A DNA stretch of 64,000 nt, taken from the NCBI GenBank assembly GCA_017417585.1, contig JAFPYX010000099.1:1-64000 (forward strand). The letters are read 5' to 3'. Below are positions 3,816-63,966 of this stretch, one piece after another; the first letter of the stretch is position 1, and each line of letters opens with the position of its first letter. The translations under genes and the position numbers were made by a program. Source of the stretch: Victivallales bacterium. Lineage in GTDB: Bacteria > Verrucomicrobiota > Lentisphaeria > Oligosphaerales > Oligosphaeraceae. The notes under the pieces were generated by a model. That model saw only the letters and a list, made by a program, of their open reading frames with translations, had not been told where the DNA came from and did not search any database.

Positions 3816-5315
3816 CTACGCCTTGTGTCCCCCGATCTGAGCATTACGTTCACGCCCAGTAGCCCCTTTTTCCAAATTCATCCCCTTGAGCACTGCGTTC
3901 ATGCCGAGTCGTTTGCGGATGGCGATGACCGCCTCCTGTCGCCGCCGTTCGCGCTCCAGCGCCTCCTGCGCCATCGCCCGGTCATGTTCCTGCACCGCAT
4001 CGTCGCTGAACAGCTCCAATTGCTTGGGAATACAGCGCGCTGCGGCAAGTTCCTCATCAACCACCCGACCAGCGGTCACATTGATGCGCCGAACAAGCAG
4101 TAGCGGATTCACCAGCCGGTCGAAAAGCCGCGTCATCGCCTCCCGAATGACTTCGGCCGAGGAGGTTGCCTCGCGGAGATTGACGGAACCGTGCACGGGC
4201 TTAGGCACCGCCCGGCCATAGTAGTCAACATGCACTTCCCCCACATAGGCATGCCCATGGTCTGCATCGGTGAGACTGCTCCGGTCGTAACCAATGTACA
4301 CTGCAACCTGGGCGGCCACCAGATGTTTCTCCACCAGGTCAAGCGCCAGCTGGTCCGCCATCTCGTGTATCACCAGCCGCGCATGCGCAAAATCGTATGG
4401 TTCTTTAAGTACCTGCCCAGCGCTGAGGCTGTGATCTGTCGGCCGATACGCTTTGATTTCCGCGATGGTACAGGGTTCCCAGCCCCAGGCATGGTCGATG
4501 AGCAGTTCCGCATTGACCCCGAAGAGCCGATAGAGTAAATCCTCGTTGTCCAACGACACCCGCGCCACATCGCCCATCGTGCGCATGCCATGTGCCTCAA
4601 GCCGTCCGGCGATGCCATGCCCCACCCGCCAGAAATCCGTAAGTGGACGATGTGCCCAGAGCTGTCGGCGGAAGCCCGCCTCGTCCAGTTCGGCGATGCG
4701 CACGCCGTCCACATCCGCAGGAGAATGCTTGGCGACGATATCCATCGCGACCTTGGCGAGGAACAGATTCGTGCCGACACCGGCGGTCGCCGTGATGCCA
4801 GTCGCCTGGAGCACCTCACGGATGAGCCGAATGGCGAACTCCCGTGCGGTCAGCCGATAGAGCCGAAGGTACTGCGTGACTTCCAGAAACACCTCGTCAA
4901 TGGAATAGACATGGATGTCCTCCGGTGCCACATACTTCAGATAGACGGCGTAGATTTCGGAACTTATCTGGAGATACCGCGCCATCCGTGGCGTCGCAGT
5001 GATATATGCCAACTCCAGCGACGGATTGGCCGCCAATTCATTTGCATTGCAGGAACTCCCGACAAAACGATGCTGTGGCGCCTGGCAACGACGCTCCGCA
5101 TTGATTTCACGGACTTTTTCCACCACTTCGAAGAGCCGCGGCCGCCCCGGAATGCCCAGCGCCTTCAACGGCGGCGAGACCGCCAGGCAGATGGTCTTCG
5201 CAGTACGACTGACGTCCGCCACCACCAGATTGGTCGTCAACGGGTCAAGCTGTCGGTCCACGCATTCGGCCGAAGCATAAAAGGATTTGAGATCAATGGC
5301 AAGACAAACACGCAT
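3816..5315 (-). CDS. umuC: Y-family DNA polymerase, UmuC/UvrX type
   Basis: Error-prone translesion polymerase. The 499-residue product begins MRVCLAIDLKSFYASAEC, giving the first catalytic Asp and the steric-gate region, and carries the second acidic motif in YSIDEVFLEV. Helix-hairpin-helix and little-finger regions follow. The long form and the YolD partner downstream point to the Gram-positive UvrX/YqjW group rather than DinB (about 350-400 residues). It is the first gene of the damage operon. No convincing LexA palindrome was seen upstream, although a TTGACA hexamer on the coding strand at 5380-5375 could be part of its promoter. Confidence 0.88.
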   Translation of the reverse strand: MRVCLAIDLKSFYASAECVDRQLDPLTTNLVVADVSRTAKTICLAVSPPLKALGIPGRPRLFEVVEKVREINAERRCQAPQHRFVGSSCNANELAANPSLELAYITATPRMARYLQISSEIYAVYLKYVAPEDIHVYSIDEVFLEVTQYLRLYRLTAREFAIRLIREVLQATGITATAGVGTNLFLAKVAMDIVAKHSPADVDGVRIAELDEAGFRRQLWAHRPLTDFWRVGHGIAGRLEAHGMRTMGDVARVSLDNEDLLYRLFGVNAELLIDHAWGWEPCTIAEIKAYRPTDHSLSAGQVLKEPYDFAHARLVIHEMADQLALDLVEKHLVAAQVAVYIGYDRSSLTDADHGHAYVGEVHVDYYGRAVPKPVHGSVNLREATSSAEVIREAMTRLFDRLVNPLLLVRRINVTAGRVVDEELAAARCIPKQLELFSDDAVQEHDRAMAQEALERERRRQEAVIAIRKRLGMNAVLKGMNLEKGATGRERNAQIGGHKA

Positions 5316-44353: not shown

Positions 44354-44851
44354 CTACATGCAATCGCCCTGGTACAGGGAATAGACCATCCCCAGCAATT
44401 CGCCCGGGCGCAATTCCTCGCTGAAAGTCAGCACGATATTCGACCAGCTTGTGCTGTCACCGCGATAGAGCTTTTTCCCCTGGATGGTGAAAACGATATT
44501 CGACCAGCTCGTGCTGTCGCGACGATAGACTTTTCCCTCACGGTAGGTCAGGAGGATATTCGACCAGCTTGTGCTGTCACCACGGTAGAGCTTTCCATCC
44601 TGGTAGGTATAGATGATATTTGACCAGCTCGTGCTGTCACCCCGGTACCACTTGCCCTTCTGATACGTATAGACGATATTCGACCAGCTCGTGCTGTCAC
44701 CGCGATACCACTTGCTACCCTTGACGGTGAAGATGACATTCGACCAGCTCGTGCTGTCGCCGCGGTAGATCTTGATCTCTTCTTCCCCTGCACACAGCTG
44801 CATGCCGAAAAGAACCATCAGGAAAATGACACCGAATTTTATGGATTTCAT
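44354..44851 (-). CDS. Secreted six-repeat YRGDSTSWSN protein
   Basis: A 165-residue protein with a signal peptide (residues 1-22, hydrophobic FGVIFLMVLFGMQL). Six tandem 20-residue units (about 27-146) of pattern K-x-Y-R-G-D-S-T-S-W-S-N-(I/V)-hydrophobic-x-T-x4-G follow, then a short tail ending CM. Alternating polar/hydrophobic residues suggest two short strands per unit and a beta-propeller, flower or solenoid. Five of the six units have RGD; unit five has RRD. I do not recognise a named family. It is flanked by the radical SAM gene (convergent) and the pseudopilin gene (same strand). Confidence 0.8.
   Translation of the reverse strand: MKSIKFGVIFLMVLFGMQLCAGEEEIKIYRGDSTSWSNVIFTVKGSKWYRGDSTSWSNIVYTYQKGKWYRGDSTSWSNIIYTYQDGKLYRGDSTSWSNILLTYREGKVYRRDSTSWSNIVFTIQGKKLYRGDSTSWSNIVLTFSEELRPGELLGMVYSLYQGDCM
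44414..44773 (-). repeat. Six 60-bp tandem repeats in the YRGDSTSWSN gene
   Basis: Period is exactly 60 bp. The core GATATTCGACCAGCT (plus-strand sense) is nearly identical in all copies, while the outer third of each unit varies, which indicates recent amplification or gene conversion with selection on the core. Confidence 0.92.
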
Positions 44852-58920: not shown

Positions 58921-60249
58921 CTAATTAAAACGCTTCGCCACTCGGTCGAGAATGGGGCTGACAACATTTAGTTCCGTCAGCACATCAAGGATGGTGTAGC
59001 GGTTGCGGATCATTCCGGCCGCCAACGTGGAATATTCCAGCCATTCGGGGACATTCAGGCCGATTTCCTCGAAACTCGTCGGGCAACCCAATAGCGCGAA
59101 ACGCCGTTTGAGTTCCTCAAAGGGCAGCAACTGCTTTCGCAGTTTCTCCGCCAGCTCATCATGCTTGGCGTAAAGGAGTTCCTGGCGTTCCCGCAACGCC
59201 TCGCCGGTAAGCAGCTTCGCCAACGCAACCTTCCTTGCGCCCTCCTCCATCGTGGTGCCCTTCAGACACTGGTCAATTTGCTCATGACGGCGCTCTGGCG
59301 TGAGTTCCGGAGCCTCAGCCGACCACCGGCGCAATTCCTCTACGCTACAATGGGAAAAGACCTCCTCCATCAGCGCGGTGGTAATCAGCGAGCCGACGGC
59401 AACCTTGAAGCCATGCGAGGGCTGGACTCCGTCCTTGCGGATGTCCCGCATCTCCCAGATGTGGCTATAGAGGTGTTCGGCACCGGAGGCGGGTCGCGAG
59501 TCCTTCATATATTGCATTGCGAAACCAGTTTGGCAGAGGCCGTTGAAAAGGTTCGCATAGCAGGTTTCGTCCCCTGCAAGCAACTTTTCGGGATTGTCGA
59601 GCCACTCCTGGAGATGCTCTTGAACCATCGGCCAGACGACGGGATGGATGGGCGTGGCACCCACGGCATCCGCAATCAGCCAGTCTCCGCCGGCCGGAAC
59701 CTTCGCGGCGAGGTCAGCGTAACCGGCGGCGGTCATCTCGACGGGCGCAGTGCGCACGACCGCGTTGTCCGCTACGATCACCAACGGTGCCGCACAGGGA
59801 AGCGTCTGCTTGAAGCCGTCCTTGGTAATGGCGGCTCCGGCGGAAGTGTATCCGTCCACGGAGCCCGCAGTCGCACAGGAGAGGTAGCCATCGATGCCCA
59901 CTTCCTCGGTCGTGCGCTTGACCAAGTCGTTCAAGGTGCCAGAACCCACCGAAATTGGACGGTGCCCCTTCAGGGGTTCTCGCAACAATTCCACATATTT
60001 GTACTCCGCATGGAAGAGCACGCTACCCGGAAAGATGACTGGCGTATCCACCTCGAATCCAGTATCCTGGAGCAACTCCTGCACGCGTTGTCCGGCGACT
60101 TTCCAGGTGTTGGTGTCTGCCACAATCCGCACCGGCCGGCCTTCATCTGGCCAGCACTCCCGCAATAACGCCGGAATCTCCGGCAGGACATCATTGCCAA
60201 TCACACATTTGTGCGTCTGCAAACCACTGGGAATCGGAATCGTCGCCAT
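58921..60249 (-). CDS. sn-glycerol-1-phosphate dehydrogenase (AraM/EgsA family)
   Basis: NAD(P)H-dependent reduction of dihydroxyacetone phosphate to glycerol-1-phosphate. The 442-residue iron/zinc alcohol dehydrogenase-like product has ISVGSGTLNDLVKR, YLSCATAGSVDGYTSAGAA, LIADAVGATP, the metal motif RPASGAEHLYSH and QPSHGFKVAVGSL. The length fits AraM of bacteria rather than the shorter archaeal enzyme. In bacteria such enzymes feed unusual glycerophospholipids or heptaprenylglyceryl phosphate; which one here is unknown. It is convergent with the phosphatase gene (173 bases between stops, no gene seen there). Confidence 0.87.
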   Translation of the reverse strand: MATIPIPSGLQTHKCVIGNDVLPEIPALLRECWPDEGRPVRIVADTNTWKVAGQRVQELLQDTGFEVDTPVIFPGSVLFHAEYKYVELLREPLKGHRPISVGSGTLNDLVKRTTEEVGIDGYLSCATAGSVDGYTSAGAAITKDGFKQTLPCAAPLVIVADNAVVRTAPVEMTAAGYADLAAKVPAGGDWLIADAVGATPIHPVVWPMVQEHLQEWLDNPEKLLAGDETCYANLFNGLCQTGFAMQYMKDSRPASGAEHLYSHIWEMRDIRKDGVQPSHGFKVAVGSLITTALMEEVFSHCSVEELRRWSAEAPELTPERRHEQIDQCLKGTTMEEGARKVALAKLLTGEALRERQELLYAKHDELAEKLRKQLLPFEELKRRFALLGCPTSFEEIGLNVPEWLEYSTLAAGMIRNRYTILDVLTELNVVSPILDRVAKRFN

Positions 60250-61329: not shown

Positions 61330-61746
61330 ATGTATTATTATAGTCCATTGGTAAATAGTCCATTGGTAAATTTTGCCATCCTGTTCTTGGTATTGTGGCT
61401 GACAAGTGGCATAGTTCTTCTGGTTTTCACCATAAAGTCGCCTCGCACCAAATACGATTGGTTGATCTTCTTCCCAATTCTCTGGTTGCTTTTCAATTGG
61501 TGTGTCCTGTTGCCGATATTGGGCCGGAACCTCAATCCCGACCATCTTGTCTTGGCGTGGAAAATCAGTCCATCTCTATTATATTTGGTATTGGGAGGCT
61601 GGCTCTGGGCAGATTTCAAAGCCCACCGTCATGCCCCCGACGAAATCAAATATCGCGTCCGCCCTTTTGCGCTTGTTGTGAATTACCTTAGCCTGACTTA
61701 CATTTGGTATTTTTGGATTGTGGTATTCAAAGCCGCCGACTGTTAA
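61330..61746 (+). CDS. Small multi-pass membrane protein
   Basis: A 138-residue protein of unknown family with four likely membrane helices (FAILFLVLWLTSGIVLLVF, WLIFFPILWLLFNWCVLLP, SLLYLVLGGWLWADF, LSLTYIWYFWIVVF). The N-terminus contains SPLVN twice, from a 15-bp tandem duplication at 61341-61370. GC content is lower than in neighbouring genes, hinting at a different origin. Confidence 0.6.
   Translation: MYYYSPLVNSPLVNFAILFLVLWLTSGIVLLVFTIKSPRTKYDWLIFFPILWLLFNWCVLLPILGRNLNPDHLVLAWKISPSLLYLVLGGWLWADFKAHRHAPDEIKYRVRPFALVVNYLSLTYIWYFWIVVFKAADC
61341..61370 (+). repeat. 15-bp tandem duplication in coding sequence
   Basis: TAGTCCATTGGTAAA occurs twice in a row, in frame, duplicating SPLVN at the N-terminus of the small membrane protein. 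Confidence 0.9.
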
Positions 61747-61779: not shown

Positions 61780-61794
61780 TGACATTCGATGTCA
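61780..61794. promoter_or_regulatory. Palindrome over the glycyl radical enzyme start
   Basis: TGACAT-TCG-ATGTCA is a perfect inverted repeat that includes the ATG at 61789. It could be an operator or an mRNA hairpin covering the start codon. A second in-frame ATG follows at 61795. Confidence 0.4.
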
Positions 61795-63966
61795 ATGCCG
61801 TTGAACTATCCATTTGAGTTCGAGCCATTTGGGCGGGCATTCGCGGAACATGCGGAGGCCTCGGTCGCCGTACGTCTAGGCTATGCCCTGCGGGAGTCGG
61901 CAAAAAACCGTCCCGTCGAGTGGCCGGAGTGCTGCATGCTGCCGACCATCGGCCCCGTGGCTTCCAACGGCGCCTCGTTCTTCACCTCGGGCAGCGGAAT
62001 CGCCTACGACGAGAAACTCTACTCCCGCCTAAAGGAAGAACACCCCGAACAACGCGTGGAACTGGAGGAAATCCGCCAGACCATTATCGAGGCATCGACC
62101 TGGAAGCACATCCACGAGAGCATCAGCCCGGTGGAGTGGCGGCTCGTTCAGTCCCACGCCTGCTGGGGCGGAACCTGGATCGGCCACGGCAATCCCGACT
62201 ACGGACGTCTTCTCCGCCTGGGCACGAACGGCCTGCGAAACTACCTTGAGGAATGTCAGGCGAAGAATCCAGGCCACGACGACTTCTATCTCGCTTCACG
62301 GCTCACGCTCGACGCCCTAGACATCCTCGGCAACCGCATCCTCGCCGAAGCAGAGAAGAAGGCCCAGGTTGCCGGACCACGGCAAAAGGAGTGGTCACGC
62401 ATTCGCGACGACTTCCGACGCATCCCCCGTGAGGGCGCTTTCGACATGCACTCCGCATCGATGCTCTTCTGGCTCCTCTTCACCTTCGACGCCATCGACT
62501 CGCCTGGCCGCCTCGATCAGTTTATGTACGAATTCTACCGTGTCAGCTCGCCGGAGGAGAGCGAGGAGATGGTCACGCGACTGCTGGAGGCAATGCATTA
62601 CGTGCGAGCTTGGAACCTCTGCCTCTCTGGCTCCAATGCACAGTGGCAGGATGAAACGAACGATTTATCCTACCTCATTCTGCGGAAAGTCAAGGAGTTG
62701 CGCTATCAGACGCCGAACCTGACTGTGCGCGTCCACCGCAATACCCCCGAACGCCTTTGGGAACTCTCCGCCGAATCGCTCGCCACCGGCAACGGCCTGC
62801 CTGCACTCTACAATGACGAGGTGGTCTGCCCTGCCCTCGAAAAACTCGGCATCTCGCCCGCCGACAGCCACGAATACTGCATGAACGGCTGCAACCAAAT
62901 CGATATCTTCGGCAAGTCACACATGGGCCTTTAGGACGGCGAGGTCAATCTCGCCAAAGTCCTGGAACTCACTCTGCACGATGGCTACGACTATGCGGTT
63001 TCCCCAGCAGAGGCCATCGCGCCATCGTTCGGTTCAGCTCGGAAGACGCGCTCCTTCCAGGAGTTCCTGTCGCTCTACTACCAGATGCTCGACCACATCA
63101 TCGATTTCACCTGCAACCTCGCCAACCGCTGCCAGGAAATCTATGCGAAAGTCGCCCCAAATCCCCTGCGATCCTGCTTGATTCAGGATTGCCTCGAGAC
63201 TGCACGCGACTACAAGAACGGCGGTCCACGCTACGGTCATGGTCAGATTCTCGCCGAGGGCATCGCCGATGCCGCAGACTCTCTTTGGGCCATCAAGACA
63301 CTCGTCTTCGACCAAGGCAAATACTCGATGGACGAGCTGGTTACGGCATTGGCGGACGATTTCGTCGGCCACGAGCGACTCTGGCGCGACTTCAAATCCT
63401 GCGAGAAATTCGGCAACGACCGCCCAGAACTGGATGAACTCTGTGCCGAAGTCGTGAACCACTTCATGCTGGAACTCAAAAAACACCGTACCTTCCGCAG
63501 TGGCATCTACACTGGCGGTTGCAGCCCATTCTCACGAGCCGCCGAAAACGGCCTTGCCACCGCCGCCCTCCCCAACGGCAAACGCAAAGGCGAGGCGAAC
63601 TTCGCAGACGCCATCGGTGCCACCCCCGGAACCGACACCCATGGTCCCACCGCTCTGCTCAAGTCGCTGATGCACTACCGCCAGACCGAGGCGGGAAGCG
63701 GCTTCGTCACCCAGCTCAAATTCGCCAAGTCGCTCTTCTGCACCGAGGACGGCATGGACGCTTTCATCGCCTTGGCAAAGACCTACTTCGACAACGGCGG
63801 GCAGCAGCTCTCCGTCAATGTCCTTGACCGCCAGGTGCTTCTGGATGCCCAGAAACACCCCGAACTCCACCGCGACCTCATCGTGCGTGTCGGCGGCTAC
63901 AGCGAGTACTTCGGCAACCTCACCCCTGAACTCCAGCAGAACGTCATCGACCGTAGTGAATTTTAA
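61789..63966 (+). pseudogene. Glycyl radical enzyme (pyruvate formate-lyase-like), interrupted by in-frame TAG
   Basis: Read through, a 725-residue glycyl radical enzyme. The start PLNYPFEFEPFGRAFAEHA and barrel segments are normal; the thiyl-radical Cys is in YCMNGCNQIDIFG. The C-terminus has the radical Gly in VRVGGYSEYFGNLTPELQ. TAG at 62932-62934 falls just after SHMGL and before DGEVNLAKVLELTLHDG, where relatives have an acidic residue, so GAG to TAG is the simplest change. Gln after GC (GCNQ) in place of the Glu of GCVE-type diol dehydratases suggests an uncharacterised subclass. No activase is in the window, but only 34 bases remain downstream. Confidence 0.85.

Follow-up and report, generated by a model that had tools for sequence, protein, structure and literature searches.

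Among the described systems, the glycyl radical enzyme (GRE) eliminases, that is, the B12-independent glycerol dehydratase (1r8w), the 1,2-propanediol dehydratase (5i2a, 5i2g, and 9rco), HypD (6vxc), and CutC (5fau), have in common with the gene analyzed here the fold, the thiyl cysteine, the glycyl motif, and an activase of the TIGR02494 type. They differ from it in identity (about 23–26% in structural alignments), in length (about 780–850 aa vs. about 725 aa), and in the Cys loop, which carries CXE in these enzymes and CNQ in the clade of our gene. Pyruvate formate-lyase (PflB) resembles it in having PFL-like and Gly_radical domains and in being also devoid of CXE, but the adjacent Cys-Cys of its ACCVSP is replaced by the single Cys of GCNQ, and the protein of the window scored 82.9 bits against the TIGR01255 cut-off of 994. 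Isethionate sulfite-lyase (IslA) belongs to the same superfamily; its E470Q variant (CXQ) can still be loaded with the glycyl radical but has no detectable activity (PMC8473560). In IslA, CXQ is a laboratory variant, whereas in the GCNQ clade it is the invariant natural state.

The window, that is, the whole 64,000-nucleotide stretch that was analyzed, is located on contig C68 of the assembly (G000) of a rumen bacterium, with 3.26 Mb in 103 contigs, 95% complete and with 8.5% estimated contamination. The closest named relatives of this genome are MAGs assigned to Victivallales that come from buffalo rumen and abomasum.

Translation of positions 61789–63966 (plus strand) gives 381 codons, a TAG (62932–62934), 343 sense codons, and a TAA, or 725 residues when read as one chain. 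This confirms the description in the earlier note of a frame that meets TAG after 381 codons and continues to a glycyl radical motif; the thiyl loop GCNQ and the glycyl motif are also present as described there. When the halves were searched separately against Pfam, the N-terminal part (61789–62934, through the TAG), which includes the thiyl Cys368 of the barrel, matched the PFL-like domain with 135.8 bits, and the C-terminal part (62935–63966, free of any further lesion) matched the remaining PFL-like domain with 185.7 bits and Gly_radical with 82.2 bits. The joined chain scored 334.6 bits for PF02901 and 81 bits for PF01228. Since both halves match the PFL-like domain on their own, and the second carries Gly_radical as well, this is one interrupted gene and not a chance arrangement. 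Its membership in the GRE superfamily of oxygen-sensitive radical enzymes is supported by the PFL-like barrel together with the Gly_radical domain, by the R-V-x-G-Y motif (RVGGY at 63886–63900, with Gly703 at 63895–63897), and by Cys368, which is invariant in the clade and aligns with the catalytic Cys of the reference GREs. Dedicated radical SAM activases are also found, namely a TIGR02494 protein on contig C52 of the same genome and a linked activase in the clade locus L037.

The motif Gly-Cys368-Asn-Gln370 (62887–62898) occupies the place of the CXE of GRE eliminases. In the alignment of the intact clade members with reference enzymes, CXE is found in YbiW, PflD, HypD, CutC, and the plasmid GREs, CCVS in PflB, CWD in a second GRE of the genus (GRE-B, see below), and CNQ in the clade. 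The CXE that marks the eliminases (PMC8473560) is absent, GCNQ being found in all clade members with a readable loop, and so is the adjacent Cys-Cys that marks pyruvate formate-lyases. In the maximum-likelihood tree, all GCNQ members are set apart from the rest by a branch supported at 100/100. No equivalog for HypD, CutC, HpsG/HpfG, IAD, HPAD, or PFL reached its NCBIfam cut-off; the best of them, HypD, gave 322.7 bits against 1100, and the PFL2-3 subfamily gave 358.8 against 678.2. The tree, the clade-wide GCNQ, and these scores far below the cut-offs bear out the suggestion of the earlier note of a possibly new subclass, in the sense of an uncharacterized one.

Intact orthologs are present in the same-genus genomes G003 (89% identity), G002 (88%), and G015 (64%). 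Remoter members, with 44–51% identity where measured, were found in G011, G013, G020, G057 (copy cut by the contig end), G058, and G059 of the same family and in Clostridia MAGs, mostly from ruminant gut. In total, 10 of the 198 genomes of the class have a clade member, and the stop occurs in one of the ten, namely the window genome. Across 15 aligned members, hardly any variation is seen in the loop YCMNGCNQxDxxGKSHMGLEDGEV, and the Met of SHMG is replaced by Ser in one further member. The TAG lies within this loop at residue 382, 14 residues past the thiyl Cys, in a column that is Glu in all 20 intact members and is encoded by GAG or GAA wherever the codon could be read, in agreement with the proposal that TAG had replaced a GAG. 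The site exists in one copy only in G000, and no viral contig contains it. GCNQ and TAG are independent features, the former being ancestral to the clade and the latter private to G000.

The selection acting on the gene does not change at the stop. In the comparison with the ortholog of G003, dN/dS amounts to 0.110 up to the stop, 0.111 beyond it, and 0.111 for the gene as a whole. On the window branch, as polarized by G015, there are 7 nonsynonymous (stop excluded) and 45 synonymous changes, of which 3 and 20, respectively, are located after the stop. Neutrality over the whole branch would predict about 150 changes against the 7 amino-acid changes seen, so any period free of selection would occupy less than approximately 9% of the branch, even without background constraint. 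The gene has a single disabling TAG in an otherwise conserved sequence with intact relatives, as a pseudogene would, while the relaxation of selection that should follow a lesion is not seen. Equal dN/dS on both sides is an indication that the stop is young, or not real, or read through; the missing relaxation means a lesion too young to show any, or a base error.

The window gene encodes the sole Gly_radical protein of G000. The only GRE activase of this genome (TIGR02494, 325.7 bits) is intact and is located on C52 (L094, 3781–4878, minus strand). The activating radical SAM gene for which the earlier note suggested looking just beyond 64000 is absent up to the contig end at 66,990; a minus-strand gene of unassigned family and a heparinase II/III-like gene are found there instead. 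An 18-bp array of 6.2 copies lies near the end of C68 (L002:6798–6909). In G003, the orthologous activase follows directly behind GRE-B (L126:3335–5596, G003:C92), whose thiyl motif is GCWD. GRE-B, which is uncharacterized and without CXE, forms a very long branch in the tree. In G000, it is reduced to a short 3′ remnant before the activase, of roughly 60 nt or roughly 27 C-terminal residues, at about 4653–4736, and this shows that a deletion has already cost the lineage one GRE. The only GRE of G015 is the intact ortholog; its one activase is encoded on a separate contig and shares 61% identity with the activase of G000. G005 has neither a GRE match nor such an activase above cut-off. This pattern fits trans activation by the C52 activase, although it is no proof of it. 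Two further features were noticed in the activase genes of the genus. One of them (L115, G001:C57:9693–10499) is interrupted by a single in-frame TAG at a position that is Tyr in its G003 ortholog (L116). Within L116 (1116–1158), a 9-bp repeat present in almost five perfect copies adds Leu-Gly-Thr repeats to the protein.

These data are probably best explained by a single-copy, activase-dependent gene of the GCNQ clade that was inactivated in G000 by one very recent nonsense substitution. In its intact form, as in other GREs, a radical SAM activase would place the radical on Gly703, and from there it would move to Cys368 of the barrel, which would abstract hydrogen from the buried substrate. 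In G000, translation would end 14 residues past the thiyl Cys and leave a fragment with no glycyl domain and no radical, and the enzyme would be inactive, except in the case of a base error at the stop. With the companion GRE beside the activase deleted, the lineage appears to be giving up GRE metabolism, which would leave the activase with no intact client. The stop, its intact flanks, the clade-wide Glu, the ordinary use of TAG, the single GRE and activase, and the GRE-B remnant are observed; the reality of the mutation, a service of the activase to the window GRE in trans, and any function of the enzyme are what we infer. Among the alternatives left by the earlier note (recent pseudogene, error, or read-through), the recent pseudogene is favored because the companion GRE was lost next to the activase and because no other lesion is present. 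The deletion in G000 together with the single-TAG activase of G001 makes an ongoing loss of the GRE system in the genus the simplest account.

Several observations speak against a recent loss. The TAG is known from the consensus of an assembly with many contigs and some contamination, there is neither a second lesion nor relaxed selection, so that the stop is the one sign of decay, and the activase is still intact. Moreover, G015 also keeps one unlinked activase with its sole intact GRE, so a retained activase could be a sign of a GRE still in use. The lack of other lesions, the intact activase, and the state of the assembly, together with the equal purifying selection on both flanks and the integrity of all relatives, would suit an error of sequencing, assembly, or strain mixing, in which case the real genome has a sense codon and an intact enzyme. 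This explanation is unlikely but has an appreciable share of the probability. A priori, a single-base consensus error that happens to create a stop is less common than a true null allele of recent origin, and the deletion of the companion GRE and the TAG in the G001 activase suit an ongoing loss.

Much less probable, and disfavored here among the three alternatives of the earlier note, is a functional UAG read-through or recoding that gives a full-length enzyme with another residue at 382. Purifying selection on both flanks and a hairpin that starts at the TAG could be cited for it. As a recoding signal, the hairpin was rejected: its z-score against shuffles is weak (−1.58), and the GAG-bearing orthologs of G003 and G002 fold alike, so that it follows from the coding sequence. 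TAG is not depleted as a terminal stop, since in the 467 kb of G000 sampled it is the stop of 87 (27%) among 319 ORFs with 150 codons or more, and it separates distinct genes by Pfam, for instance queF/queC-like and brxC/D-like/helicase pairs. No tRNA with a CUA anticodon is found among the 43 tRNA genes of G000, a list that is incomplete, as the assembly lacks tRNA-Tyr and some further tRNAs; this leaves some room, against a recent pseudogene, for a suppressor tRNA outside the assembly. The best PylS_Cterm match in G000 is 29.2 bits (hits of 27–29) against a cut-off of 178.15. Residue 382, being an invariant Glu in an invariant loop, is also a bad spot for a random residue. A coding-score survey for other interrupted genes, which was not exhaustive, gave 156 raw candidates and no second clear case among the nine high-scoring ones taken to Pfam; most of the nine have unrelated domains on the two sides, as ordinary tandem genes do, and L148 has too few domains for a judgment. 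Finally, a split enzyme whose halves are made separately and then assemble is hardly credible, for although GrcA is an example of a spare-part glycyl domain that complements damaged pyruvate formate-lyase (PMC8683613), the cut here falls within the Cys loop of the barrel and not at the boundary of the glycyl domain, the next in-frame start (63085) is about 50 residues downstream, and the relatives in the class are all free of a stop at this site.

Apart from the probable recent loss in G000, the intact GCNQ enzymes are of interest in themselves, as a residue thought indispensable to eliminase chemistry is naturally Gln in a coherent branch of GREs. Since IslA loses detectable activity with the same change (PMC8473560), the chemistry of the GCNQ enzymes should differ, or the base should have moved within the loop. 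They may be a chemically distinct GRE class of gut and rumen without the Cys-loop Glu, which would employ other acidic residues of GKSHMGLEDGE, including the one hit by the TAG, or catalyze a reaction that does without a general base. The G003 ortholog was modeled by AlphaFold with a mean pLDDT of 82, with low values in the Cys loop, and the structures closest to the model are the 1,2-propanediol dehydratase (TM 0.83) and the glycerol dehydratase (0.82, both by query), with about 26% identity. In a gapless alignment of the loop, the TAG position (Cys+14) corresponds to Asp in the diol dehydratases, which we take to be Asp447 of the glycerol dehydratase, a residue in contact with the substrate. 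A catalytic role of Glu382 may only be hypothesized, because the model has no confidence in that loop.

Members of the clade are mostly lone genes, with no linked activase within the stretches read except in L037. In this locus (L037:610–8145), from a Clostridia MAG of goat rectum, a radical SAM activase is followed by three tandem, diverged GCNQ GREs. The neighbors are often carbohydrate related (heparinase-like genes, PF06439, and glycosidases) but they are not conserved. Heparinase-like genes are close to the window GRE and to the G058 member, and a PF06439 (3-keto-disaccharide hydrolase) protein is close to L043 and to the G011 and G020 members; apart from these, no neighbor is conserved across phyla in the 6-kb flanks of 12 loci and the eight class-level loci. 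Assigning a substrate from these neighborhoods was attempted and dropped, as the signal is too weak; that the enzyme acts like a dehydratase or a lyase on a substrate derived from a sugar would be a guess of low confidence. In the window, a 138-aa membrane-like ORF lies just upstream of the GRE (61330–61746, plus strand), with no Pfam match and no proven link to it. A gene similar to Fe-ADH_2 and glycerol-1-phosphate dehydrogenase (58921–60249, minus strand) may be linked to the GRE, and a 94% identical copy is also found near the ortholog in G003. Its protein is closest to the archaeal-type glycerol-1-phosphate dehydrogenase, with 137.9 bits, which is below the cut-off. Elsewhere in the window (44433–44773), there is an array of 60-bp repeats with 5.7 copies and 77% matches.

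Radical formation and substrate are testable, since there are intact genes and, in L037, an activase in clear linkage. G000 also represents a lineage caught with one GRE deleted, the last one apparently going by point mutation and the activase left over. In comparison with known systems, the closest sister group of the GCNQ enzymes is an uncharacterized GCTE clade of the same order (L011–L014), with a support of 100/99 for the joint group; it differs in keeping CXE, and identity to it is about 31–36%. The pyrrolysine type of UAG recoding is similar in that an anaerobe carries an in-frame UAG within a gene for an enzyme, but here neither PylS nor a CUA tRNA was found, TAG is a common stop, and the relatives have Glu. 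In conclusion, the GCNQ subclass adds a variant to an already known superfamily, and the TAG itself is probably ordinary gene decay.
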